Of a stretch of 64,000 nucleotides of DNA, positions 8,805-64,000 are shown in pieces. Source of the DNA: Cherax quadricarinatus (Eukaryota; Arthropoda; Malacostraca; Decapoda; Parastacidae). Position 1 is the first letter of the stretch. Each line of letters begins with the position of its first letter. Below the pieces are notes generated by a model. The model did no database searches, was not told the origin of the DNA, and saw only the letters and a list, made by a program, of their open reading frames with translations. The stretch lies in NCBI RefSeq assembly GCF_038502225.1, contig NC_091300.1, forward strand, positions 43,879,688 to 43,943,687. The letters are read 5' to 3'. Made by a program: the position numbers and the translations under genes.

Positions 8805-10709
8805 CTAGGTCACTCTCCCTGAACCGTGAGCTTTATCATACCTCTGCTTAAAGCTATGTATGGATCCTGCCTCCACTACATCGCTTCCCAAACAATTCCA
8901 CTTACTGACTACTCTGTGGCTGAAGAAATACTTCCTAACGTCCCAGTGATTCATCTGTGTCTTCAACTTCCAACTGTGTCCCCTTGTTACTGTGTCCAAT
9001 CTCTGGAACATCCTGTCTTTGTCCACCTTGTCAATTCCTCTCAGTATTTTGTATGTCGTTATCATGTCCCCCCTATCTCTCCTGTCCTCCAGTGTCGTCA
9101 GGTTGATTTCCCTTAACCTCTCCTCGTAGGACATACCTCTTAGCTCTGGGACTAGTCTTGTTGCAAACCTTTGCACTTTCTCTAGTTTCTTTACGTGCTT
9201 GGCTAGGTGTGGGTTCCAAACTGGTGCCGCATACTCCAATATGGGCCTAACGTACACGGTGTACAGGGTCCTGAACGATTCCTTATTAAGATGTCGGAAT
9301 GCTGTTCTGAGGTTTGCTAGGCGCCCATATGCTGCAGCAGTTATCTGATTGATGTGCGCTTCAGGAGATGTGCCTGGTGTTATACTCACCCCAAGATCTT
9401 TTTCCTTGAGTGAGGTTTGTAGTCTCTGGCCCCCTAGACTGTACTCCGTCTGCAGTCTTCTTTGCCCTTCCCCAATCTTCATGACTTTGCACTTGGTGGG
9501 ATTGAACTCCAGGAGCCAATTGCTGGACCAGGTCTGCAGCCTGTCCAGATCCCTTTGTAGTTCTGCCTGGTCTTCGATCGAGTGAATTCTTCTCATCAAC
9601 TTCACGTCATCTGCAGACAGGGACACCTCAGAGTCTATTCCTTCCGTCATGTCGTTCACAAATACCAGAAACAGCACTGATCCTAGGACTGACCCCTGTG
9701 GGACCCCGCTGGTCACAGGTGCCCACTCTGACACCTCGCCACGTACCATGACTCGCTGCTGTCTTCCTGACAAGTATTCCCTGATCCATTGTAGTGCCTT
9801 CCCTGTTATCCCTGCTTGGTCCTCCAGTTTTTGCACCAATCTCTTGTGTGGAACTGTGTCAAACGCCTTCTTGCAGTCCAAGAATATGCAATCCACGCAC
9901 CCCTCTCTCTCTTGTCTTACTGCTGTCACCATGTCATAGAACTCCAGTAGGTTTGTGACACAGGATTTCCCATCCCTGAAACCATGTTGGCTGCTGTTGA
10001 TGAGATCATTCCTTTCTAGGTGTTCCACCACTCTTCTCCTGATAATCTTCTCCATGAATTTGCATACTATACATGTCAGTGACACTGGTCTGTAGTTTAA
10101 TGCTTCATGTCTGTCTCCTTTTTTAAAGATTGGGACTACATTTGCTGTCTTCCATGCCTCAGGCAATCTCCCTGTATTGAATATTGTTAGGGGTACACAT
10201 AGCGCCTCTGCTCCCTCTCTCAATACCCATGGGGAGATGTTATCTGGCCCCATTGCCTTTGAGGTATCTAGCTCACTCAGAAGCCTCTTCACTTCTTCCT
10301 CGGTTGTGTGCACTGTGTCCAGCACATGGTGGTGTGCCCTACCTCTCCGTCTTTCTGGAGCCCCTTCTGTCTCCTCTGTGAACACTTCTTTGAATCTCTT
10401 GTTGAGTTCCTCACATACTTCACGGTCATTTCTTGTTGTCACTCCTTCCTTCATTAGCCTGATTACCTGGTCCTTGACTGTTGTTTTCCTCCTGATGTGG
10501 CTGTACAACAGTTTCGGGTCAGATTTGGCTTTCGCTGCTATGTCATTTTCATATTGTCTTTGGGCCTCCCTTCTTATCTGTGCATATTCGTTTCTGGCTC
10601 TACGACTGCTCTCCTTATTCTCCTGGGTCCTTTGCCTTCTATATTTCTTCCATTCCCTAGAACACTTGGTTTTTGCCTCCCTGCACATTTGGGTAAACCA
10701 TGGGCTCAT
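8805..10709 (-). CDS. LINE A reverse transcriptase (ORF2 C-terminal part)
   Basis: 634-residue open frame encoding the RT that would copy LINE RNA at a nicked target. In order it shows a basic linker (residues 1-110), RT fingers (KAMGPDNISPW; NYRPVSLTCIVCKFMEKII), palm (GFRDGKSC; IFLDCKKAFDTVPHK; SGVPQGSVLG), the catalytic box near residue 366 reading SADDVKL instead of FADDVKL, then thumb and the C-terminal domain (YGRLANLRTAF; HSFKQRYDKAHG). The true start lies upstream; the ATG at 10709 only marks where the frame opens after a frameshift. Both catalytic Asp residues remain, but the Phe to Ser change beside them is unusual. Fragments elsewhere in the window keep Phe. Confidence 0.88.
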   Translation of the reverse strand: MSPWFTQMCREAKTKCSREWKKYRRQRTQENKESSRRARNEYAQIRREAQRQYENDIAAKAKSDPKLLYSHIRRKTTVKDQVIRLMKEGVTTRNDREVCEELNKRFKEVFTEETEGAPERRRGRAHHHVLDTVHTTEEEVKRLLSELDTSKAMGPDNISPWVLREGAEALCVPLTIFNTGRLPEAWKTANVVPIFKKGDRHEALNYRPVSLTCIVCKFMEKIIRRRVVEHLERNDLINSSQHGFRDGKSCVTNLLEFYDMVTAVRQEREGCVDCIFLDCKKAFDTVPHKRLVQKLEDQAGITGKALQWIREYLSGRQQRVMVRGEVSEWAPVTSGVPQGSVLGSVLFLVFVNDMTEGIDSEVSLSADDVKLMRRIHSIEDQAELQRDLDRLQTWSSNWLLEFNPTKCKVMKIGEGQRRLQTEYSLGGQRLQTSLKEKDLGVSITPGTSPEAHINQITAAAYGRLANLRTAFRHLNKESFRTLYTVYVRPILEYAAPVWNPHLAKHVKKLEKVQRFATRLVPELRGMSYEERLREINLTTLEDRRDRGDMITTYKILRGIDKVDKDRMFQRLDTVTRGHSWKLKTQMNHWDVRKYFFSHRVVSKWNCLGSDVVEAGSIHSFKQRYDKAHGSGRVT

Positions 10710-10788
10710 CCTGGCTTTTCATTATTCGTGTTACCCTTGGGTACAAACCTCTCCTCAGCCTCCTTGCATTTTGTTGCTACATATTCCA

Positions 10789-12732
10789 TCATCTCATTAA
10801 CTGGCTTCCCTGCCAGTTCTCTGTCCCACTGAACCCGTTCAGGAAGTTCCTCATTCTTGTGTAGTCCCCTTTCTTGTAGTTTGGCTTCATTCGTCCTGGC
10901 CTTCCTGCTTCTCCCTCCACTTGTAGCTCTACTGTGTATTCGAAGCTTAAAACCACATGGTCACTGGCCCCAAGGGGTCTTTCATATGTGATGTCCTCGA
11001 TATCTGCACTACTCAAGGTGAATACTAAGTCTAGCCTTGCTGGTTCATCCTCTCCTCTCTCTCTTGTAGTGTCCCCTACGTGTTGGTACATGAAGTTTTC
11101 CAGTACCACCTCCATCATCTTAGCCCTCCATGTATCTTGGCCCCCATGCGGGTCCAAGTTCTCCCAATCGATCTCCTTGTGGTTAAAGTCACCCATTATC
11201 AGGAGCTTTGCCCTGCATGCATGAGCTCTTCTGGCCACTCTAGCCAGTGTGTCAACCATCGCTCTATTGCTCTCATCATACTCTTGCCTTGGCCTCCTGC
11301 TGTTCTGTGGTGGGTTATACATCACTGCTATTACCACCTTGGGACCTCCAGAGTGAAGCGTTCCCGCTATGTAATCACTTTCTTCTCCGCTGTCTCCTCT
11401 CTCCAGCTCATCAAAATTCCAGCGATTTTTGATCAGCAATGCCACTCCTCCACCCCCCCTGTTCCCTCTGTCTTTCCTCAGGATTTGGTATCCTGTTGGA
11501 AAGATGGCATCTGTTATCATACCTGTAAGCTTGGTTTCTGTGAGAGCTATGATGTCAGGTGATGCTTCTTTGACTCTTTCATGCCACTCCTCCCACTTAT
11601 TTGTTATACCATCAGCGTTTGTATACCATACCTTCAGTTTCCTTTCCATCACTGTGGTTTGTGGGGCCTGTGAGGGTGGGAGACCTGGTGGCATACTGTG
11701 GGATTCTATAGCTCGGTGTTGGGTGGAGGCTGTGGGTATGGATTGTAGTGTGTGTTGGGATGGTGTGATAGGTTGTATGGTTCTGAGAATAGTTGTGTGT
11801 GTGCTTGCACTTGCTGTTCTGTTCTGCTGACTGACCTCTGCTGGTTCCATCCTTGTCTCTTTTCCTAGCTCCTTTCGCTTTTTTGTCCTCTCCCTCAGCT
11901 GCTGTCGTTCTGATTGTGTTCTGTCTCTGTCTAGGAACACCCTCTTGTACTCTTCTGAGTATTTCAATCGTGGTTTCTCTTGGAGGATCCTGTTCCGAAC
12001 TGTTTCCGTCCTGAGAATCAGCTTGATTGGTCGGTTTCTCCCCTTCGAGTACCCCCCTGTTCTCTGAAAATTTACAATCTCGTCCATCTCTTCACCTATT
12101 TCCATGATGATTTTCACAATCTCCTTACTTTCTTCCTGCTGCCTTTCAGTGTGTGTCCTTTCCTCTCTCTCCCGAAGCCCATGGATAAACACTGATTTTG
12201 CCCTTTCCTCCTCCCATTGCCTCACCCTCTGTGACTCTGGATCCTGCCTGTATGTGGTCAGTTTCTCCCTTGATTTCTCCAGTGGGTCTTGATAGCATGG
12301 TTGTGCCTCAGCGTTCGACCTATCACCCTCTCCATCTGCAACCAGCTGTTCTTCCCTTTCACTCCTTGGCTTTTTTTGGCAGGTTGATATGACCTTAGCA
12401 TAATTCATAATTCCTTCCTTCCTGTTCGGCCTCACAGCTTCATATGCTGTGTCTTCTCTGGTCACTGCCCCTGTAACTCGCTTCAGCCTATTTATCTCAA
12501 CTTCTAGGACCCTTATCTTGGCTACTGCAGTTTCGACTTGTGCCTCCCAATTCTTTGTCTCCTTCTCCAACCTCTTTTCCAATTTCACAGAGAGCTCTTT
12601 CTCCATTTTTTCAGAAAACTCCTCTAATTTTCTCTCCCACTCTTGTTCCATCCCTTTCCACTGCTCCTCCATCCACTCCTCCCTACCAGAACCATTCTCA
12701 TCTGATCCTTGGTTCCTGCGAGTCCCCACCAT
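10789..12732 (-). CDS. LINE A ORF1-endonuclease fusion frame
   Basis: Read from the ATG at 12732 (MVGTRRNQG), which follows a poly-A run in the sense strand, this gives 647 codons. The frame stays open upstream to 13077 but only through low-complexity Ser/Leu/Pro codons of the CT-rich leader, so I reject that extension. Residues 20-100 are a Glu/Lys coiled coil ([18 protein letters not shown] type). Residues about 180-260 form the ORF1 RNA-binding-like part ([20 protein letters not shown]). From about 366 comes an APE endonuclease: [40 protein letters not shown] (about 514), LDLVFT and [10 protein letters not shown] (about 589). The catalytic Glu, Asp and His positions look present. The frame ends 80 bp before the RT frame because of a frameshift near 10835. 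Confidence 0.85.
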
Positions 12733-13440
<708 letters not shown>

Positions 13441-13529
13441 GCGAGGTTCAGATGGTCAGTTCACAGGATGGAGTGAAATCCTGTGTATGTGTGTGTTTGC
13501 GTGTTTACTACAGCTTACAAGTGCTTGTT

Positions 13530-15426: not shown

Positions 15427-18400
15427 TCATACTTCTCCGTAGTCCCTAAGATTCCTGAAAACTTTATTGGCCGCCCTAAAGCTTGTGCCATTGTCCGAGA
15501 TAATCAATCGCAGGCACGAGAATCTGGCTGTAAACCTCCTGAACAGCTTCACGAAAGTCTCTGTTGACATATCTTCTGCCAACTCTAAATGCACCGCTTG
15601 AGTAGTGGCACAAGTAAACAGGCAGACATATACCTTCTGAGGGCCCACCCTATCGTCTCCTGGGTTCTTCAATGTGATAGCCCCAGTATAGTCTATTCCC
15701 ACAGTCTCAAAGGGCCTGTCACTATGTACCCACTCCTGAGGCAGCGGTGGTGGACCTGGGTATGGTAGGGTCCTCCCATCATACCGCCGGCAGACCGTGC
15801 AACTCTTTAGCACCCTTTTGACGGCAGCTCGACCCTTCAGTACCCAGTAATTCTGACGTAGGCAGGTGAGGGTATCTCCAAACCCCCCATGTAAGGTCCT
15901 CTGATGGGCATCTTGTATCAATAGCTCAGTCGCCCATCCCTCCTTTCCCAGTAGCACGGGATGTTTGGCCCCATAGCTGAGCTCAGAGTTTTGTATTCTT
16001 CCCCTGCATCTTATTAGCCCTGCATGATCTAGGAACAATCCCAATGAGTGAACCAATTTGCTGTTCCCTGAGTCGTCGTTGTTGGACACGTGTCCTGACG
16101 CCATAACCTGCTGCCTGGTCGCAAGTACTTCCAGCACTCCTGGAAACCTCTTCCTTTGGTACTGCCTTATCCAATATTCTCTGGGACCCACGAGAGACAA
16201 CTGTCGACCTTGGCTTACCTTGTCATGCAGCTTCCTCACAAATCGAAATACCATTTCCGTTACTCCTATAAATTTCCTCCATGAGGAGTAGCGCCTGGGG
16301 TCAAATAATTCAGTGTCGGGTTCCCCCGCAAAGTGTACTATGCTGCTGGTTGTCTCCACGAATTTCTGCTCCGGCCAGCAATCCCTTGCCGGTAACCAGT
16401 CTGGGCCTTTGAACCAAATCTCGCTTTTACTCAGCTTTTTGTGTGTCACCCCTCGGCTTATCAGGTCGGCTGGGTTTTGATCTGTAGGCACATACAGAAT
16501 TGTTGATGTTGACTGTAGTTCACGTATCTCCTTTACCCGATTCCTGACATAGGGGAGCTTAGACCTGTCGTTCTGGACCCACTGCAAGGCCACCTCCGAG
16601 TCTGTCCATACATAGGTGTGTGTCACCCTCAGATTACTCAACACCTCCTCTACGTACTTACCCAGTCTTGCTCCCAGCAACATCGCCGTGAGCTCTAGCT
16701 TTGGGATCGAGCAATCCTTCAGGGGTGTCACCCGCGCACGACTGGTGACCAGATTGACTTGGTCCCCGGCCACCAAATACGCTACTGCCCCATAGGCCCT
16801 GGAGGAGGCATCACAGAAGACGTGCAAGTCATAATCCCGCCCGGTACACCCGATGGACCTGGGGAATGTGAACTCATGCAATTCCGCTAGGTCTTTGCTA
16901 ACCAGATCCCACTCCTGGCAGACTGTTTCTGGCAGTGGGTCGTCCCAACCTAGGTTCAGCTCCCAGGTCTGTTGCACTAGCATCCTCCCTCGAATGGTGA
17001 TGGGTGTCAACAAGCCCAAAGGATCGAAGGCAGTCTGTACTTTGCTCAGCAAAGACCTCCTGGTCAGCTTCCCTTCCCCATCAGGTTTCCTCTTTAGCCT
17101 AAGTCTGTCTTCCTCGATTTCCCACTCCAGTCCCAACACCGATGTTACCTCAGGTACTGAGTAGCCAGCATAGTCACGTTCCACCGTGCCCTGCAACGTT
17201 GGATTGTTTGTCACCCATTCTCTCAATGGCATGTTAGCCGAGATCATCTCCTGAATAGACTCTCGGTAAATGTCCATCAACAGCCTTTCATCTGAGGTGG
17301 TACCTTGCATGTTGTCTACATAAAATAGGGTCTTCAGTAATTCTTTAAGCGGGCTGTTACAGTTCACAAGGTGGTAGTCTATGGTAGCCTGTAATAAGAA
17401 TGGTGAACTATTGGCTCCAAACAACACTGCCCTGAATCTGTAGGTATCATACCCTCGCTTGGGCACCTCCCTGTTAGCCAACCACAAGAACCTTGTGTAG
17501 TCCCTGTCTTGTGGCTGCAACCCAATACATAGGAAGGCTTTGCTAATGTCTGCCGCATAGGCGTACTGTTCTATCCTGAATCTCAACAACACATCTGCTA
17601 ATTTCTGCGTCAGGGAGGGCCCTGTGAGCAGACAGTCGTTCAACGATGGCTCTCGGGGACTCGCCTGCGAGCTGCAGTTGAAGACTACTCTGATGGGAGT
17701 GGTTACCGACTCCTTGGTGACTGCCATGTGTGGAAGATAATGGGTGTTTTCCCCAGGGCTGGCACTGGGCACTTTCTCAATGAACCCAAGGGCCAGCTGT
17801 TCCTTAATAATATCATCATATTTCTCCACCAGACCCTTCTTGGTCAGGCTGTTCACCAATGAATTCAACTGACCCCGTGCCTTCTTGAAATTAGTGGGCA
17901 GCATTGGGTGTCTCGGTTTCCATGGGAGTCGCACCCAGTACTGCCCGTCCCTGAACTGCACATGGTTCAAGTAAACTCGATATGTCTCTTCGTGTTCGGG
18001 GGGCTGCTGGTCACCTTTAATCCCTACTACATCCAGGTCCCATAGTTTATGGACCGGCTCACTGTCGGATATGCCAACTTGTGTCTCTGACAGACCTTCG
18101 TGCACACCAATCCGCATCACCAGTACAGCCTCAGTCGCTGTAATACCAGAGCCCTCCTTTCCCGGGGTCGCAGGGAAGTGAGCTGGTACTCTGCCTCCTA
18201 CGATGTACCCCGCTGGAGTCCTGTACAGGCCAACCCCCTCCTTGATAACCCTTCTCGTAGACACGAACTCGTCTATGTAATCCCCTCCTACCAAGATTCC
18301 TACATTACTAACGTTGTCTGTAGCAATGTCTGGTTCTGCTAGCTTCACACCCAACTCCCTCAAACGTTTGACTGCTGCAGCCAGTCCCTTAGTGGTAATG

Positions 18401-20091
18401 ATATTGGGCAGCCTCTTCACTATCAAGGCTGAAATTTCCCGTCGATGCCCGGCTAACCTGACCGTCACATTGACTACTGGATAAGACCTGCGTGGGACTT
18501 CCCCACCAAACCCTTCCACCTTCATGTCAACTTTACCAACTGTCTCCAGCTTCAATCTAGTTGCTAGACTCTCCACTATGAAGGATCTCTGTGCCCCACT
18601 GTCGAAGAACAAACGGGTCATTTCAGAATTCTTCCCGTTCGCAACCACCGCCATTCTGGTGGGCAAGGCCACCGAACCTTGAAACTGCTCACCAGAACAA
18701 ATTCTCGGTGCCGTACTCGCCACACTCATCACTACTTCAGACTTCTTCTTGCTCCCCGCCCTTTCTCGCGGTTTGCTCTCCTTAACTTGTGCTAATCTGG
18801 CGTCATTAGGACACAGTGCACTGTGGTGCTTACCCTTCCAGCAGCCCCGACACTCCCTGAGTTGGGCATTACAGTCCCTGGCAAAATGTTCTCCACAACA
18901 CTTGAAACAAAGTCTCAACTCCCTTAGTCGTTGAACCCTTTGGTTATAGGTGGTGAAGCTTGAACACCCTGAACTAGCATGTTCTTCTTCACAAAACGTG
19001 CACCGTCTCTTACTGGCCGCTTGAATGACTTCTCCCTTGGCTCTGGGGGTGGAGGACTTGTCCTGGGCATATGAGCCAACCCTAGTAGGAGGTGGTTTAG
19101 CTTTATCTCTCGAGTATCTGGAGGGGTTGATCGATTCCACCTTGGTCGGCAATTTCTCCCCCCGACCTATGCTCAGGTGAGACACGAGATCTCCCAACCC
19201 CTCAACGATCTGTTGTATTGTGAACCGGTTCGTCCGATATTTTAAGTGCAGCTCGTGCACTGTGGTGCCAGCCAGTTTCCTCTGAATCACCTGACTGATG
19301 AACCATTCCGACTTACCCCAATCATGTAAATCTTTAAGACTATTTGTCAAACTCATAACTTCGATTCGGAACTTCTCTAGGCTCTGACGGTCATGGCGAC
19401 AAGCCTCTAGATCCAACAACCGATAAAATATAGCTACCTTTATCTCCTCAGTGTTGCCAAACGTGTCCTTTAATTGGTCTTTGGCATGTTGGTAATTGGT
19501 GTCGGTGGTTTGGTAATGCCGGACCAAGTCCAAGGCTTTACCCTTGAGCTGTGAACGTAAATATTGTAATTTGACGGCATCTGACAAATCGTCTCTGTCA
19601 TCTATCTGGGCTTTAAACTGATCCCAGAAAGCAATGTACTCTGTTAAGGTTCCGTCGAACGTTGGTAAATTCAACTGGGGCAATCTGGGCAACACATTAA
19701 CAGGCGTGCTGTTGTTCGTGTTCCTTGAAACATTTGCTCCCCCTGCTGTACCGGCCTTCAAAGTTTTTATTAACTGCCTGCAGAGTCTCATCTCTGCTTT
19801 ACACTCTGCCCTTCGTTCATCATAGTCCGTCCGTGCTACTTCGACTGTATATTCAGACTCACCTGTAGTATAGGCCTCTGTCTCATAAAGGATAAATGAT
19901 CTCTCAAAGGCCTCCAGTCTTTGCTCCAAAGGTTTCAGGCAACTCTCTAGTTCCTCCCAGTCTACATCTGGATCTTGCCTGACCGTACGACACTCCTCAC
20001 ATGCTTTGCTCAGGCGCCCCTTATAGGCTCCCATAGACCGCTTTAACTGACTTAGAGCTGGGACAGCTGGTACTGCATCTTCACCTACCAT
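15427..20091 (-). CDS. BEL/Pao gag-pol polyprotein, truncated in integrase
   Basis: 1554 codons. Residues 1-115 are a coiled N-terminus (DUF1759-type gag; LPTFDGTLTEYIAFWDQF near 145). Cys-rich knuckles follow near 355-425 (CTFCEEEHASSGC; LCFKCCGEHFARDC; CRGCWKGKHHSALC). The aspartic protease has FFDSGAQ with Asp497. The RT palm contains YAADISKAF and the box FYVDNMQ with Asp926-Asn927, where YVDD is the usual form. RNase H has FCDASSRAYG, KLELTAM and WTDSEVALQW. The integrase has its HHCC finger (HQRTLHGG; CTVCRRY) and core acids Asp1467 (GIDYTG) and Asp1533 (SDNGTS), then a TGA. The start ATG at 20091 is supported by the gag-like N-terminus and by stop codons upstream. It is translated as one polyprotein in the family. 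Confidence 0.93.
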   Translation of the reverse strand: MVGEDAVPAVPALSQLKRSMGAYKGRLSKACEECRTVRQDPDVDWEELESCLKPLEQRLEAFERSFILYETEAYTTGESEYTVEVARTDYDERRAECKAEMRLCRQLIKTLKAGTAGGANVSRNTNNSTPVNVLPRLPQLNLPTFDGTLTEYIAFWDQFKAQIDDRDDLSDAVKLQYLRSQLKGKALDLVRHYQTTDTNYQHAKDQLKDTFGNTEEIKVAIFYRLLDLEACRHDRQSLEKFRIEVMSLTNSLKDLHDWGKSEWFISQVIQRKLAGTTVHELHLKYRTNRFTIQQIVEGLGDLVSHLSIGRGEKLPTKVESINPSRYSRDKAKPPPTRVGSYAQDKSSTPRAKGEVIQAASKRRCTFCEEEHASSGCSSFTTYNQRVQRLRELRLCFKCCGEHFARDCNAQLRECRGCWKGKHHSALCPNDARLAQVKESKPRERAGSKKKSEVVMSVASTAPRICSGEQFQGSVALPTRMAVVANGKNSEMTRLFFDSGAQRSFIVESLATRLKLETVGKVDMKVEGFGGEVPRRSYPVVNVTVRLAGHRREISALIVKRLPNIITTKGLAAAVKRLRELGVKLAEPDIATDNVSNVGILVGGDYIDEFVSTRRVIKEGVGLYRTPAGYIVGGRVPAHFPATPGKEGSGITATEAVLVMRIGVHEGLSETQVGISDSEPVHKLWDLDVVGIKGDQQPPEHEETYRVYLNHVQFRDGQYWVRLPWKPRHPMLPTNFKKARGQLNSLVNSLTKKGLVEKYDDIIKEQLALGFIEKVPSASPGENTHYLPHMAVTKESVTTPIRVVFNCSSQASPREPSLNDCLLTGPSLTQKLADVLLRFRIEQYAYAADISKAFLCIGLQPQDRDYTRFLWLANREVPKRGYDTYRFRAVLFGANSSPFLLQATIDYHLVNCNSPLKELLKTLFYVDNMQGTTSDERLLMDIYRESIQEMISANMPLREWVTNNPTLQGTVERDYAGYSVPEVTSVLGLEWEIEEDRLRLKRKPDGEGKLTRRSLLSKVQTAFDPLGLLTPITIRGRMLVQQTWELNLGWDDPLPETVCQEWDLVSKDLAELHEFTFPRSIGCTGRDYDLHVFCDASSRAYGAVAYLVAGDQVNLVTSRARVTPLKDCSIPKLELTAMLLGARLGKYVEEVLSNLRVTHTYVWTDSEVALQWVQNDRSKLPYVRNRVKEIRELQSTSTILYVPTDQNPADLISRGVTHKKLSKSEIWFKGPDWLPARDCWPEQKFVETTSSIVHFAGEPDTELFDPRRYSSWRKFIGVTEMVFRFVRKLHDKVSQGRQLSLVGPREYWIRQYQRKRFPGVLEVLATRQQVMASGHVSNNDDSGNSKLVHSLGLFLDHAGLIRCRGRIQNSELSYGAKHPVLLGKEGWATELLIQDAHQRTLHGGFGDTLTCLRQNYWVLKGRAAVKRVLKSCTVCRRYDGRTLPYPGPPPLPQEWVHSDRPFETVGIDYTGAITLKNPGDDRVGPQKVYVCLFTCATTQAVHLELAEDMSTETFVKLFRRFTARFSCLRLIISDNGTSFRAANKVFRNLRDYGEV

Positions 20092-21010
20092 AGTTGCGGT
20101 TTAGTTAAGATCATGGTACTAATTTGTACTTCAATTAGCCCACCCCACAGCACGAACGGTATTAGGTGAGAATGAACAAGTCTCAAGGCTTCTCAAGAAG
20201 CTTAACAAATCCCTTTATTATATTGACTCTACTCTGAATCAAAAATGTACACTGTTAGCTTTCAAATCCCAATCAAAATGTGTATCGGTGTGAAAGCTTA
20301 ACCTAGCACTTAACTGTACAATGCCAGCAAATAATTACAGGACTTAACCTAGTCTCAGGTATGATTCACAAATCCCACATTAACATGAATCAAAGACAAT
20401 GAAAATCACACAATAAAAGTGCAGTATACAAATTAAAATCACTTGGTTAACACAAGTAAATTCAACAATTCAACTTGTGAAACAGTAAATAATGTATGTA
20501 AACAGCTTGGCCTAATTGTGCCCAGCTTACTCTGTCTAGCGTGGATGGTTGGATAAGGTAAATCCTAACCAAACTAGTGTGCTATAACTTAAACCTGGCT
20601 TTATAACTCCCTGTAAATAATAACTAGGTTAAATATGTCCTAGCTACTATAACTTTTGTAAATATTGCACAAGCCTAGCCTAACTGTGGCTACCTTGCAA
20701 ATCCACTGTAAGTAATTAACACACAAGTCTCCTACTCTGGATTACTTTTAATCACTGTAAATAATTAAATTCACAAGCTTCTCTAGCCTACCTGGCCTGC
20801 CTGTAAATTACTGCAAATAGCAACTTCTGTGTATTGTCAGCTTGGCCTAGCCTCTGTAACTCTGGGCCTAGAGTGCTAACTTAACCTAACTTTTTTAAAC
20901 TGGTTCCTAACTGTGGCCTAGCTAAGATAGCTTAACCTAACTCTGTTAAACTGGTTCCTAACTGTGGCCTAGCTATGATAGCTTAACCTAGCTATTCCAC
21001 ATCACGGTTT
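20092..21010 (-). other. BEL/Pao untranslated leader, with internal tandem duplication
   Basis: About 0.9 kb between the 5' LTR/primer site and gag, AT-rich, with frequent CTTAACCTA-like words on +. A unit of about 55 bp is repeated in tandem at about 20878-20932 and 20933-20987 (shared GGTTCCTAACTGTGGCC). The long leader may hold packaging signals; that is inference. Confidence 0.7.
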
Positions 21011-24047: not shown

Positions 24048-51593
<27,546 letters not shown>

Positions 51594-55969: not shown

Positions 55970-56776
55970 AACCTCGTTCATATTTGTTAATATACAGGGC
56001 CTTAAGCCATCCACCAACAACAAAATACATTTTATCAGTGCACTTCTAAAGGAGTCAGATGTGGTGTTTGAAGCCTTCACAGAGACCCACACATAAGATC
56101 CCTTTGAGAAAGAAATATGGATAAATGGTTACAACCTTTTTAGATGTAACAGAAAGAACAGGCAACAAGGGAATGTTGGCCTGTATGTCAAAGAGTCGCT
56201 CATCTGCACGGAGATGCTGAACACCATAAATGATGCAGTTGAAGTTCTAACAATAAAGATCGAGACCCAAAACCTAGACATGGTGGTTGTATATAAGCCA
56301 CCAGATGCAACCTCCCAACACTTCAAGAAACAGCTACTGAAGATTGATTACTATCTGGAAAGCCTTCCAGCTCCATCACCAAACATCTTACTGGCATCTT
56401 ATGGCATGCGAAATGGAAGAATGTAGCTAATAATGTTATAGCAGAAACAATCCCTAGAGGCAGCACAGAAGAAAGGTCACACACACGAGCTACTAAATCT
56501 CTGCGATAAACACACCCTTAGTCAGCACATAGTGGAGCCAACAAGACTGGAAAACACACTTGACCTTATCTTCACAAATAATGAGGACTTGGTAAGAGAC
56601 ATAACAATATCAAAAACAACTAATTCCGATCGCAATCTAATCAAAGTTCAGACTTATATGCACAGTGATCTTGATCAGCAAAGTGCACGTAGCTGTGAGT
56701 GTGTCTTCACCAAATACAACTTCAACAACAAGAATATCATCTGGGACCAGGTGAACCATGTCTTAAATGAAACATG
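55970..56776 (+). pseudogene. LINE B2 APE endonuclease, N-terminal and middle part
   Basis: Pieces in changing frames: FEAFTETHT (E-T-H-T, equivalent of TETW), NRQQGNVGLYVKESL, VVYKPPDATSQHF, RLENTLDLIFTNNED. Keeps the N-terminal part that B1 lacks. The GDFN motif is damaged near 56395. Confidence 0.75.
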
Positions 56777-56849
56777 AACATTAAAATGGTATAAAATACC
56801 GACAGGTTGTTAGGTAAGACACATATGCCACAGTTAGGTATCTTTATTT

Positions 56850-56886
56850 CGAAACGTTTTGCCTACACAGTAGGCTTCCTCAGTCG
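56850..56886 (-). ncRNA. hammerhead core with broken GAAA (copy 5)
   Basis: As copy 4, but the first G of GAAA is A (T at 56860 on +), expected to abolish catalysis. A natural inactive comparison. Confidence 0.7.
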
Positions 56887-57278
56887 AGTACAGAAAAGTT
56901 GATAGAAGCAGAAGAGACTTGAAGACGATGTAATCAGTCCATCACCCTTAAAGTTTTGAGGTGGTCAGTCCCTCAGTCTGGTGAAGAGCATTGTTCCTTA
57001 GTCTGAAACAATATGGAGTTGAAGTGACAGGATGGAGCCTTATATAGCGCCAGGAGGTGAGACGTAGGTCACTAGTAGAAGTAAGAACGCAGATGTTGGG
57101 AGGTCAGGTCCCTCTCAAATCCAGCCGTTCTCACTAGTAGAGGTTGTCGAAGTTGATTGCAGGTCTGTACCAAGATACCCTTGTGTTGCAGTGTCTGACA
57201 GATTGAACATTAAAATGGTATAAAATACCGACAGGTTGTTATGTAAGACACATATGCCACAGTTAGGTATCTTTATTT

Positions 57279-57315
57279 CGAAACGTTTCGCCTACACAGT
57301 AGGCTTCCTCAGTCG
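57279..57315 (-). ncRNA. hammerhead ribozyme core (copy 4, minus arm)
   Basis: Minus strand: CGA stem I, CUGAGGA (57306-57312), stem II GCCUAC/GUAGGC, GAA-AC-GU-U, then UCG closing stem I. Same as copy 3 in inverted orientation. Confidence 0.77.
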
Positions 57316-57588
57316 AGTACAGAAAAGTTTATAGAAGCAGAAGAGAACGGCTGGATTTGAGAAGGACCTGACCTCCCAACATCTGCGTTCTTACTTCTAC
57401 TAGTGACCTACGTCTCACCTCCTGGCGCTATATAAGGCTCCATCCTGTCACTTCATCTCCATATTGTTTCAGACAACGGAACAATGCTCTTCACCAGACT
57501 GAGGGACTGACCACCTCAAAACTTTAAGGGTGATGGACTGATTACATCGTCTTCAAGTCTCTTCTGCTTCTATCAACTTTTCTGTACT

Positions 57589-57625
57589 CGACTGAGGAAG
57601 CCTACTGTGTAGGCGAAACGTTTCG
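57589..57625 (+). ncRNA. hammerhead ribozyme core (copy 3, plus arm)
   Basis: CGA (57589-57591), CUGAGGA (57592-57598), stem II GCCUAC/GUAGGC with a 3-nt loop (57600-57614), GAA-AC-GU-U with predicted cleavage after 57622, and UCG (57623-57625) pairing with CGA. Compared with copy 1, stem I (GGA/UCC) and stem II changed on both sides. Confidence 0.8.
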
Positions 57626-57667
57626 AAATAAAGATACCTAACTGTGGCATATGTGTCCTATCATAAG

Positions 57668-58331
57668 TGAAACATGTTGGGAAGGTATCTTAAATAACAT
57701 GGATCCAAACCAGTGCCTTGAAAGGATCAACTTTCTGGCAGCTGAAGTATATTCAAGGCATATTCCCCTAAGAAAGAAGAAGAGAAGAAATAAACTTGAG
57801 AAAGATGCTCCCTCTACAGAAGACGATGAAGAATAACTGAGCTCTTCAAGAACGCTAGATTATCTGATACACGGAAGGAAGCACTGGCCAGGGAAGTGGA
57901 AAGTATCGAACTTAAGTGAAAGGATTCTTGCAGGACCCAGGCGAGACTGGAGGAGGTAAAAGCGATTAGTGAAATTGAAAGAAATTCGAAATATTTCTTT
58001 TCATATGCCAAAAACAAGGCAAATACCACATTTAGTATCGGCCCTTGCTCAGACAAGATGGGACTTACACAGATGATAACAAAGAAATAAGTGAGAAACT
58101 GAAATCCCAATATGACTCTGTTTAGCTAGCCACTAATCAGTCTAAAGATAGACAATCCAAATGTTTTTTTTCATGAATGAGCCTCAAAACTCCATCAATG
58201 TATGCCAGATTTCCGACATTACCCTAACTCCAACAGACGTTGAGAAAGCCATTGACAACATGCCCATGCACTCAGCCCCAGGCCTAGACTTGTGGAACTC
58301 TGTGTTTATTAAGAACTGCAAGAAACCCCTT
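57668..58331 (+). pseudogene. LINE B2 linker and RT N-terminus
   Basis: NMDPNQCLERINFLAAEVYSR region (57651-57836), then 58161-58331 MNEPQNSINVCQISD, MHSAPGLDLWNSVFIKNCKK, cut by LINE D at 58331/58332. Confidence 0.83.
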
Positions 58332-58728: not shown

Positions 58729-60340
58729 TTAGTTGACGGGGTGTATCAGGGAGATAAGATGTTTTCTAATGGTAGTTTTGAAGGTGATGAATGTGTCTGC
58801 AGTTCTAGAGTTCTCAGGTAGGGTATTCCAGATTTTAGGGCCTTTGACATACATTGAATTTTTGTAAAGGTTTAGTCGGACACGGGGAATGTCGTAGAGA
58901 TGTTTGTGTCTGGTGTTATGCCTGTGGGTTCTGTCACAACTATCAAGAAAGCGTTTTAGGTCAAGGTTGATATTAGAGTTTAAGGCCCTGTAGATATAGA
59001 TTGCACAGTAGTAAGTGTGGATGTACTGAACTGGGAGTAAGTTTAGATCTTTGAAGAGTGGGGGGGTGTGCTGCCAGGGATGGGATTTAGTGATTATTCT
59101 TACTGCAGCTTTTTGTTGGGTTATTATTGGCTTTAGGTGTGTTGCTGCAGTTGATCCCCAAGCACAAATAGCAAAGGTGAGGTATGGATAAATAAGTGAG
59201 TGGTATAGCGTGAGAAGGGCATTTTGCGGCACGTAGTATCGTATCTTGGAGAGGATCCCAACCGTTTTGGATACTTTTTTGGCTATATGCTGGATATGGG
59301 TGCTGAAATTTAGGTTGTTGTCAAGGTATAAGCCTAGGAATTTTCCCCCATTATTTCTGGTAATTAGAGTGTTGTCAATCTTAATGTTAATTTGTGCATC
59401 TCCTGCTCTGCTACCAAACATAATATAGTAAGTTTTGTCAGTGTTAAGCGTAAGTTTATTGGCTGTCATCCAAGTCGATATTTTAATCAGCTCCTCATTC
59501 ACAATGGTGTTGAGGGTGGCAAGATTAGGGTGAGAGATGACATAAGTCGTGTCATCAGCAAAGAGAATGGGTTTCAGGTGTTGGGATACGTTTGGAAGGT
59601 CATTGATGTATATGAGGAAGAGCAGGGGACCAAGGACACTTCCCTGCGGAACTCCAGTATCAAGTGGCCGTGTTGCTGATGCTGTGTCTTTAATGGTGAC
59701 GTACTGATACCTATTAGTAATGTAAGATTTGAAATAAGCAAGCGCATGGCCTCTTATACCGTAGTGGTCAAGTTTGTGGAGTAGGATTTGGTGGTTTACT
59801 GTGTCAAAAGCTTTTCTTAGGTCAATAAAAATTCCTAGTGGATATTCCTTATTTTCCAATGCTGTGTAAAGCAGATCTAGCATTTTTATGATTGCATCAT
59901 TAGTGCTTTTATTTTTCCTGAATCCAAACTGGCAGGGGTTGAGTATGTTTTGAGCCGTTATAAATGAATACAGTCTCTTGTACACGAGTTTCTCAAAGAT
60001 TTTGGATAGCAATGGTAAGTTAGATATTGGCCTATAGTTGTTTAAGTCTGTAGGGTCACCACCTTTATGTATTGGTGTAACCCTTGCCATCTTGAGTAGT
60101 TTCGGGAAGGTGCTAGTCTCTATTGACTTGTTAAAAAGTAATGAAATAGCATGCGAAAGGACATGGGCCGCTCGCTTGTACAGTAATGGTGGGACATGAG
60201 ACAGATTCCCCGAGTTATTTTTAAGTGACTTTATGATCCCAATGACTTCCGTGGGCTCAGTTGGTGCAAGATAGAAGGAATTAGGGAAATTACCATCTAG
60301 GTAGTCAACGGCATGGGCATTGGTATGTGGGATTTTACTG
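58729..60340 (-). CDS. LINE D reverse transcriptase
   Basis: 453 open codons from the ATG at 60090, with the same frame extending back to about 60340. Order: MARVTPIHKGGDPTDLNNYRP, LPLLSKIFEKLVYKRLY, QFGFRKNKSTNDAI, GIFIDLRKAFDTVNH, TGVPQGSVLGPLLF, ILFADDTTYVIS (both catalytic Asp), WMTANKLTLNTDKTY, KFLGLYLDNNLNF, then the C-terminal domain ending TTIRKHLISLIHP. Full set of RT motifs without stops. Clade L2/CR1 by general look; RNase H is absent. Confidence 0.92.
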
Positions 60341-61684
60341 GCGAGATTTAGATCCTATGTTTGAGAAGAAGTCGTTTATCTTGTTAGCTGTGTCAGTGGG
60401 ATGTAGTGGTGTTTCATTAGGTTTAGTTAGGACAATATTCTTGGTTTTTCTCAGTTTGTGGGTCCCTAGAATCTGAGAGAGTGTTTTCCAGGTCTTTTTT
60501 ATATCTCCTCTAGTGTCTGTGAATCTACTGGAGTATAGTTTTTTGGCTTTTTTTATTGCTTTGGTGAGCGTTGATGAATAGTGTTTAAGAGTATCTTTGT
60601 GTATTAAGCCATGTCTATATTGCTTTTCATATTGGTGTTTCTTGTCTATGGATTTCAGAATGGTGCTGGTTAGCCATGGGCAACCAAGCCGTTTGTTTGT
60701 GATCTGTTTTGTTTTTATAGGACAATGTTTGTTGTATAGTCTAAGTAATTTGTTAAGAAAGATGTCTGTCCAGTCATCAATACCATTGGCCTTGGAGAAT
60801 TCTGTAGGCCAATCAACAGTCTCTAGGTCAGCTGTGAACTTCCTTACTGAGGCCTCGTCATGGAGTCTAAATGAGACTTTGTTGTATTCAAGTGGTGGTT
60901 TACTAATGTTTGTCAGGAGGAAGGTAGGGTAGTGGTCTGTAGTGCTATCTGTGATTATCCCTGATTTAATGGGGGCTAGTATATTGGTCCATATGTGGTC
61001 TATTATGGTTGCACTTGTCTCAGTGAGCCTGGTTGGTTTAGTTATTGTTGGTATGAGAAGTGTGTTGTTCATATTGTTGATGAAATCAGTTACAGGCTGA
61101 TCATCTAGTAAGCCAAGGTTGATGTTGAAGTCTCCAGCTAAGAGAAGGTGGTGCTTATTCATTTGTCTGTTTGTTATTAGTGACTTTAATTTCTCACTGA
61201 AATTTGGGATGTTTGTGTGAGGTATCCGGTAAATGGCACCGATTGTTATAGGCGTCTTAAGATTTTTTACAGTAAAATTAGCAAAAATGTATTCCCCATA
61301 TTCATCACTAAAGCAAGTGGTGCTAAGACAAGATAATTGGTTAGAGTAATAGATTGCAATACCACCCCCAACTTGGTTTGTTCTGCAGTTGTGAATTGCT
61401 GTGTATCCTGGTAGAGGGTAGATATCTATTGTGTCCTGCTTAAGCCAGGTCTCAGTAAGAATAATGCAGGAGAAGGGTGTCTTTAGTGATTCAAGGAGTG
61501 CTAGGAGGTCATCATAGTGTTTGCTTAAGGACCTGATGTTGTAGTTAAGTACTGATAGACTTTTAGCATTGTTTAGGATAGTGGTGGCTTGTGATGCTGT
61601 GTAATAAAGGCAGTTACTTTCCAATAGGTTTTGATTGGGTGTCAAATTATGGAGGTTTAGATCAGGGTCAACGTGATCAATCAT
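60335..61684 (-). CDS. LINE D APE endonuclease
   Basis: 449 codons from the ATG at 61684, only about 6 bp from the element's 5' edge. Motifs: LSVLNYNIRSLSKHYDDLL (Asn of the N-terminal motif), IILTETWLK (catalytic Glu), GGGIAIYYS, LLLAGDFNINL (GDFN), ATIIDHIWTN and STTDHYPTFL (SDH-like His). The linker to RT follows and ends at a frameshift (…FFSNIGSKS then stop, 60335). It would nick target DNA for target-primed reverse transcription. Confidence 0.92.
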   Translation of the reverse strand: MIDHVDPDLNLHNLTPNQNLLESNCLYYTASQATTILNNAKSLSVLNYNIRSLSKHYDDLLALLESLKTPFSCIILTETWLKQDTIDIYPLPGYTAIHNCRTNQVGGGIAIYYSNQLSCLSTTCFSDEYGEYIFANFTVKNLKTPITIGAIYRIPHTNIPNFSEKLKSLITNRQMNKHHLLLAGDFNINLGLLDDQPVTDFINNMNNTLLIPTITKPTRLTETSATIIDHIWTNILAPIKSGIITDSTTDHYPTFLLTNISKPPLEYNKVSFRLHDEASVRKFTADLETVDWPTEFSKANGIDDWTDIFLNKLLRLYNKHCPIKTKQITNKRLGCPWLTSTILKSIDKKHQYEKQYRHGLIHKDTLKHYSSTLTKAIKKAKKLYSSRFTDTRGDIKKTWKTLSQILGTHKLRKTKNIVLTKPNETPLHPTDTANKINDFFSNIGSKSRQ

Positions 61685-61689
61685 CTTCT

Positions 61690-63745: not shown

Positions 63746-63784
63746 AGTCTCTGCTATGACATTATATAACAGTAACAAGTTTGA

Positions 63785-64000
63785 AAGTTAAGACACATGT
63801 GCAACATCTGGATATCTTTATTGTAGACGTTTCGCCAACCAGTGGCTTTATCAATACAGATTCTAGGACATAATAGGAAGACAGTAGAACTATATACAAA
63901 AGATGAGGTAATCAGTCCCTCGGCCGAGGGACTGATTACCTCATCTTTTGTATATAGTTCTACTGTCTTCCTATTATGTCCTAGAATCTGTATTGATAAA
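63785..64000. mobile_element. hammerhead unit arm, perfect palindrome running off the window
   Basis: 63847-63923 and 63924-64000 are perfect reverse complements (77 bp each), centred on CTCGGCCGAG. The left arm continues with a minus-strand hammerhead and the AAGTTAAGACACATGTGCAAC end. The right arm must continue beyond 64000 if symmetrical. Confidence 0.88.
63822..63858 (-). ncRNA. hammerhead ribozyme core variant U3-A8 (copy 6)
   Basis: Minus strand: UGUA stem I, UUGAUAA core (63848-63854), stem II GCCA/UGGC, GAA-AC-GU-C, UACA closing stem I, then AATAAAG. Same paired C3U/G8A change as copy 2. Confidence 0.72.

Follow-up and report, generated by a model that had tools for sequence, protein, structure and literature searches.

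What kind of mobile element is the 891 bp insert at positions 56777-57667 of the window, the 64,000 nt stretch of Cherax quadricarinatus DNA analysed here, and which enzyme could move it? A first-pass annotation had described an ORF-less palindrome with hammerhead ribozymes on both arms, regarded its form as possibly undescribed and named no mobilizing enzyme. Sequence comparisons suggest, with a probability of about 0.85, that the insert, ORF-less and non-autonomous, descends from a Penelope-like element (PLE) and relies in trans on the GIY-YIG endonuclease and reverse transcriptase (RT) of PLEs in the same host. The best reading of its layout is that a hammerhead RNA, either multimeric or circular, served as the template for two-ended target-primed reverse transcription.

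Boundaries and composition of the insert

The insert interrupts a LINE copy (LINE B2), the flanks of which align to another, LINE B1, at 35428-35980 (72.9% identity) and 35988-36642 (70.3%). Removing the insert together with one copy of TGAAACATG renders this alignment gap-free across the junction, and the insert is absent from LINE B1; with TGAAACATG present on both sides, the proposed insertion into LINE B2 is borne out. The target site duplication (TSD) is perhaps longer if mismatches are allowed (TCTTAAATGAAACATG and TCATAAGTGAAACATG, 88% over 16 positions). No ORF of at least 40 aa lies wholly within the insert, two merely overlapping its edges, and it is therefore not an autonomous PLE, which would carry an ORF for RT and GIY-YIG domains; the earlier view that it encodes nothing stands.

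The description as a simple palindrome with two hammerheads has to be revised. The insert is composed of a 429 nt unit, present as 1.33 units head to tail followed by 0.74 of a unit in inverted orientation, such that inverted arms at 56815-57132 and 57343-57660 are 98% identical over 318 bp. A tail of approximately 30 nt is found on the left end only, and there are three minimal hammerhead motifs, the outermost having a mutated core. The individual features are as follows.

56777..57667, no strand: whole ORF-less insert, 891 bp, inside LINE B2
56768..56776, no strand: TSD, left copy, TGAAACATG, from the empty-site alignment to LINE B1
57668..57676, no strand: TSD, right copy, TGAAACATG, from the empty-site alignment to LINE B1
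56777..57205, minus strand: complete 429 nt unit, outer copy; the unit period recurs in genome copies
57206..57346, minus strand: 5'-truncated unit, head to tail with the outer copy
57343..57667, plus strand: inverted 5'-truncated unit, without a tail at its end; overlaps the minus-strand tandem by 4 nt
56777..56806, minus strand: 30 nt tail, left end only (unit positions 400-429)
56784..56804, minus strand: tail stem-loop, TGTCGGTATTTTATACCATTT; its 20-mers are exact in the host PLE L050 (by script), and the letters are identical in L051-L053
57429..57435, plus strand: TATATAA, putative promoter
57040..57046, minus strand: TATATAA, putative promoter
57592..57622, plus strand: hammerhead core, CTGAGGA, stem II and GAAACGTT, predicted cut at 57622/57623 (motif scan)
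57282..57312, minus strand: hammerhead core, inner copy, predicted cut at 57282/57281 (motif scan)
56853..56883, minus strand: hammerhead motif, outer copy, core mutated with AAAAC for GAAAC (motif scan)
57627..57632, plus strand: AATAAA immediately 3' of the plus-strand hammerhead
57272..57277, minus strand: AATAAA immediately 3' of the inner minus-strand hammerhead
56843..56848, minus strand: AATAAA immediately 3' of the outer minus-strand hammerhead motif

The TATATAA and AATAAA motifs are oriented outwards throughout, and the outward order of TATA box, hammerhead core and AATAAA in each arm had been read correctly; the motif scan also arrives at the cut between 57622 and 57623 that had been predicted.

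The hammerheads appear to be of the minimal type found in PLEs, as previously suggested, having a conserved core, stems I and II and a stem III reduced to ACGU without a loop, in place of the closed stem III of a canonical type I ribozyme. Four palindromic bases are too few to close stem III within one molecule; by description, this resembles a case from Lunse et al. in 2017, in which the shortness of stem III is said to prevent closure within a single molecule and to make a dimer necessary. Scanning for the core, stem II and stem I with an ACGU stem III identified six sites in the 64 kb window and two in 500 simulated 64 kb windows with the dinucleotide frequencies of the real one, a comparison that is not an independent test because the pattern was composed after the sites had been seen in the window. 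Pairing in stem I is maintained with differing bases across the families of the window (UCGA/UCGA, GGA/UCC and UGUA/UACA), and when the unit consensus is folded as a circle, stems I and II are present in the predicted minimum-energy structure, the whole-circle fold having a z of -2.4 relative to 100 shuffles. Rfam hammerhead families matched neither the window at the gathering threshold nor the insert at E <= 10, and exact-pattern scans of viral contigs and genome contigs gave no match. According to PMC7761336, minimal PLE hammerheads may act as dimers, and minimal hammerheads are present in thousands in many animal genomes, mostly dispersed in non-coding DNA.

Copies of the unit in the host genome

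Searching the 3.95 Gb host genome with the insert gave 3,303 first-look candidates, of which 40 loci were scored (260 matches); all 40 were retrieved with 1.5 kb flanks and read. Chains < 150 bp and most matches of < 90% identity were dropped, leaving 43 chains. Since the frequencies given here cover 40 scored loci out of 3,303 candidates for one particular query, they are not genome-wide, and the sample was selected by similarity to a query that itself has the inverted form and that, as locus L001, is one of the 22 canonical chains described below. The ORF-less unit occurs at many loci with its own 429 nt period, with up to six units head to tail per arm, and the hammerhead core is intact in 118 of 142 units.

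Inverted chains with outward-facing ends account for 32 of the 43, the other 11 being without inversion or otherwise arranged. By script, 22 of the 43 are canonical, meaning inverted with one tailed and one tail-less end, the tail being on the left in 11; nine have an atypical end (eight combined with a tail, one with a tail-less end), one has two tail-less ends (L043) and none has two tails. At L012, read by eye, a tail is apparent at both ends, with the left arm interrupted and the right arm more diverged, and the one-tail regularity of the sample hence has two exceptions, L043 and probably L012. At even odds, mixed ends in at least 22 of 23 chains would arise with a probability of 3e-6, or 2e-5 for 22 of 24 when L012 is included as two-tailed.

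Exact TSDs of at least 9 bp, ranging from 9 to 17 bp, were identified beside the unit ends in 20 of the 22 canonical chains, L001 included, with no exact duplication of 9 bp at L011 and L040; the corresponding figures are 6/110 for displaced controls and 3/21 for non-canonical chains. Two of these non-canonical duplications were discounted, that at L033 being a simple repeat and that at L042 lying within the tail, and the 17 bp duplication called at L026 is doubtful because it lies 22 bp away from the chain end. The claim that the insert is a mobile unit with its own boundaries was to fall if the other copies were always the ends of longer Penelope elements or lacked direct repeats; the duplications of the canonical chains uphold it.

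Penelope-like elements as candidate helpers

The layout of the insert, its tail and its duplications are already known from ORF-bearing Penelopes, which, according to PMC3846280, have two direct pLTRs and an adjacent inverted pLTR, a 9 bp TSD, an optional 31 bp tail on one inverted pLTR and a TATA box in the pLTR. Direct and inverted pLTRs like those of the insert are found both in Pen2a_Av of Adineta vaga (PMC3846280) and in the Poseidon element PAc of Anolis (PMC11167929). Outward ends, an optional tail of 30-40 bp at one end, short duplications and a TATA box in the pLTR are likewise common to the insert and Penelope/Poseidon PLEs; a hammerhead motif has also been reported in PAc and other PLEs, and PAc has an internal RT start. 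The genome copies of the unit display the same insertion signature, with tandem and inverted pLTR-like units, a tail at one end and a short duplication of variable length. Unlike Penelope/Poseidon PLEs, the insert has no ORF, its 429 nt unit is repeated head to tail up to six times per arm, AATAAAG follows its hammerhead and the corresponding reading frame of the unit contains stops. The suggestion of an undescribed form can therefore be retained only in part: the inverted layout is published for ORF-bearing Penelopes (PMC3846280), while a search of the open-licence literature alone, and thus a weak negative, revealed no account of PLE hammerhead families that share the layout but lack an ORF. 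The same literature, as an equally weak negative, yielded no quantitative account of the one-tail regularity.

A GIY-YIG search of the host genome returned 14,992 candidates, and all 150 that were scored lay above the cut-off. Open frames at these 150 loci extend up to 793 aa, save one of 1,945 aa, and the 27 pairs of GIY-YIG matches < 5 kb apart are all outward-facing. Four of the 27 pairs (L050-L053) were selected by us for reading, L050 being the one scanned for RT. Its 793 aa frame contains both RVT_1 and GIY-YIG, its arms of 1,478 bp are 99.9% identical, and it has a 13 bp duplication and one tail. All four loci share the layout of the insert and carry hammerhead-like motifs, with the tail stem-loop situated at one outer end only. 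A 13 bp duplication is also present at L052; one was searched for at L051 and not found. The left flank of L051 and the duplication of L052 both adjoin AGTCTGG, possibly a shared target sequence or a shared repeat.

An exact 20-mer, TGTCGGTATTTTATACCATT, is common to the unit and L050, and the region from hammerhead to tail is about 75% identical over 94 nt. The similarity continues for approximately 30 nt beyond the RT start (TGTCAGACACTGCA in the unit, TGTCAAACACTGCA in L050), through sequence that belongs to the ORF in L050 and has stops in the frame of the unit; the remainder of the unit has no match to L050 at E <= 0.01. By analogy with PMC11167929, the tail stem-loop would correspond to the RT start. 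The GIY-YIG/RT PLEs of the host genome are consequently a strong candidate for the enzyme moving the insert, a role for which no enzyme had previously been put forward; that the window contains no Penelope RT fits the Pfam scan, in which none of 27 frames, out of 39 of at least 150 aa, matches GIY-YIG.

Priming, template and alternative explanations

In vitro, a PLE protein cuts and extends both DNA strands, starts reverse transcription at two internal sites bounding the tail and depends on an RNA that includes the initial 172 nt of the ORF; the RT start site of PAc is equal for top and bottom strands, a strand indifference unlike the one-tail regularity of the host copies (PMC11167929). In the same study, the PAc hammerhead did not cut without the protein, its mutants inserted with equal efficiency and the hammerhead cut was not an end point of any RNA-seq read; the later steps of PLE insertion are stated to be yet to be validated. 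The role of hammerheads in PLEs is called a mystery in PMC7761336, which regards PLEs as no more than candidate movers of animal retrozymes.

The 429 nt unit appears to retain parts of a pLTR: a TATA box and a minimal hammerhead, together with the tail stem-loop and a little sequence 3' of the RT start. An ORF-less RNA that had kept these last two features would lend itself to being carried by PLEs. The PLE enzyme would cut both DNA strands, offset by about 9-17 bp, and reverse transcription of one shared template would then be primed by each free 3' end, starting in one case at the site beyond the tail and in the other about 30 nt upstream. Both first strands would pass the hammerhead, often copying more than one unit, before meeting and joining at short overlaps, the outcome being outward-facing arms of which one is tailed and one tail-less.

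Variants within loci bear on the nature of the template. Of 405 pairs of copies that share a rare variant, 152 fall within one locus (mean 9.1 and maximum 19 in 300 shuffles), 72 of these pairs being between opposite arms (mean 4.8 and maximum 14 in 300 shuffles). As rare variants are common to both arms far above chance, the arms appear to derive mostly from one kind of template. Across ten sites in the 22 canonical loci, the consensus base is present in 133 locus-site cells, whereas in 34 every unit of the two arms has one and the same non-consensus base; a further nine cells are mixed, including four from L040, the locus lacking a duplication in this respect. These sites were picked after inspection, the unselected test being the sharing among the 405 pairs. 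Templates were nevertheless not always uniform, as single-unit cases exceed those attributable to recurrent mutation (49 against an expected 5 or so). Inherited non-CpG variants, in 143 locus-by-variant cases, are present in all units of the locus in 72 and in some units in 71, and a perfectly uniform template in every insertion is accordingly rejected. Gene conversion alone is disfavoured as a source of the shared variants, since locus-private variants are found in all units in 11/235 cases, compared with the 72/143 of inherited ones. Together with the one-tail regularity, the variants shared between arms constrain the mechanism of PLE insertion.

Arm ends were mapped with the repeated unit as the query, a single-unit query having given partly artefactual ends at position 1. 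The hammerhead cut site is crossed by 58 of 66 arms and 42 of 66 are longer than 1.05 units, which argues against cut linear monomers as the usual templates. Stopping of the RT at the cut is unsupported, with 3/66 arm ends lying within 10 nt of it, approximately the number expected by chance. An excess of arm 5' ends (27/66) falls at unit positions 1-86, which make up one fifth of the unit and directly follow the RT start on its 3' side, and 24 of the 33 inverted junctions, one locus being counted twice, overlap by at least 2 nt.

One tentative proposal, to which we would give somewhat less than even odds, is that a circular 429 nt RNA made by the hammerhead is copied repeatedly by the trans-acting Penelope RT from both 3' ends of the staggered break, each with a fixed start. 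As the RT start lies inside the RNA, a lone linear monomer would shed its 3' part with each jump, a loss that tandem or circular templates would avoid, suggesting a testable purpose for the hammerhead. Were the circle to be real, PLEs would be the long-sought helper of ribozyme-bearing passengers in animals, and the PLE hammerhead would serve to provide a template that loses nothing despite the internal RT start. The template could instead be a multimeric but linear RNA transcribed from an array already in place, copied by the same PLE machinery with the hammerhead uninvolved in making it, a serious contender that likewise falls a little short of an even chance. Arrays of up to six units per arm are available as sources, the frequent crossing of the cleavage site and the 71 variants confined to part of a locus agree with such a transcript, and in vitro the insertion of hammerhead mutants like wild type has led to the suggestion that uncut RNA is the main substrate (PMC11167929). 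The rare variants common to units and arms, which coexist with frequent unit-private variants, and the intact cores of most units speak against this alternative, although both are also compatible with a linear template.

It is unlikely that the inverted arms arose through self-priming, by fold-back of first-strand DNA or an antisense transcript, in place of two independent primers. This origin has been suggested for head-to-head Penelope copies (PMC3846280), and would suit both a composite at 63.8 kb in the window, a perfect 284 bp palindrome centred on GGCC, and L025, the arms of which begin at an identical unit position; yet at most of the 33 junctions the arms end at differing unit positions (289 and 74 in L001) with short overlaps, and the outer ends are at two distinct sites where a simple fold-back predicts one turning point. 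Still less probable is LINE-driven movement of a metazoan type I retrozyme. The insert does resemble the metazoan non-LTR retrozymes of Cervera and de la Pena 2020 (PMC7229834) in its hammerhead units, which lack ORFs, lie in tandem and are a few hundred nucleotides long, 429 nt falling within the 150-450 bp range of animal retrozymes, in its duplications of > 4 bp and in being non-autonomous, and that source leaves both LINEs and PLEs open as helpers. Unlike these retrozymes, however, its hammerhead is of the minimal PLE type, with a stem III of just ACGU; its combination of inverted arms and a one-sided tail is characteristic of PLEs (PMC3846280); and it has TATA motifs, whereas retrozymes seem to be promoter-less (PMC7761336).

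Inverted arms and a short direct duplication would also be expected of a MITE-type DNA transposon, with the arms as terminal inverted repeats moved by a transposase, but duplications of 9 to 17 bp and arms from a fraction of a unit to six units contradict it, the ends are unlike, one having the 30 nt tail, and the arms are internal tandems; the chance of this explanation being correct is negligible. Long palindromes can be sequencing artefacts, and a hairpin chimera in the assembly, or a truncated relic of a longer PLE, would be highly improbable though not quite so remote. While 5' truncation is frequent in PLEs (PMC3846280), the duplications match at the outer ends of 20/22 canonical chains, the ORF-less unit recurs with its 429 nt period at many loci and both L001 flanks align to a LINE paralogue. 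The preferred reading, a PLE derivative moved in trans, concerns a family of hammerhead-bearing units that lack an ORF but display the insertion signature of PLEs, in a genome that has a PLE with a matching start stem-loop.

Related inserts and other features of the window

Besides the tandem, the third hammerhead and the mutated core, the first-pass inventory lacked three related inserts in the window.

31836..33617, no strand: second outward-facing composite, of a related family, with a tail on the left and none on the right
63783..64000, continuing to 64093, 93 bases past the window, no strand: third composite, a 311 bp insert with a tail on the right only
41558..41718, plus strand: lone hammerhead-and-tail copy, of the family of the 63.8 kb composite

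The second composite is flanked by the duplication ACTGAGAAAT (31826-31835 and 33618-33627) and the third, that containing the palindrome, by ACAGTAACAAGTTT (63769-63782 and 64094-64107). An isolated exact 22 nt match to the unit, GATGGACTGATTACATCGTCTT, is found at 38489-38510, and the window's other families have similar stretches upstream of their hammerheads.

Within the second composite, the interior (31928-33198, approximately 1.27 kb) matches 46205-46744 in part, at about 67%, and coincides partly with an RNase H frame (32709-33239, minus strand); it could be a fragment of a LINE picked up between the PLE arms, or could have inserted later. With this LINE-like interior, the composite may represent a case of captured sequence like the NRPS gene of A. 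vaga located between Penelope pLTRs, in which the pLTRs alone sufficed for integration in trans (PMC3846280). An inverted pLTR and a duplication are features of the NRPS case and of the insert at 56777-57667 alike, which differs in carrying no host gene.

Elsewhere in the window, a 724 aa open frame without a Pfam match occupies 27019-29190, and a BEL/Pao-type element at 15430-20100 (minus strand) has a 1,557 aa open frame with matches to Pao peptidase, protease, RT and integrase zinc-binding domains. Two LINE-type endonuclease/RT frame pairs are present on the minus strand, at 8808-13455 and 58732-61687.
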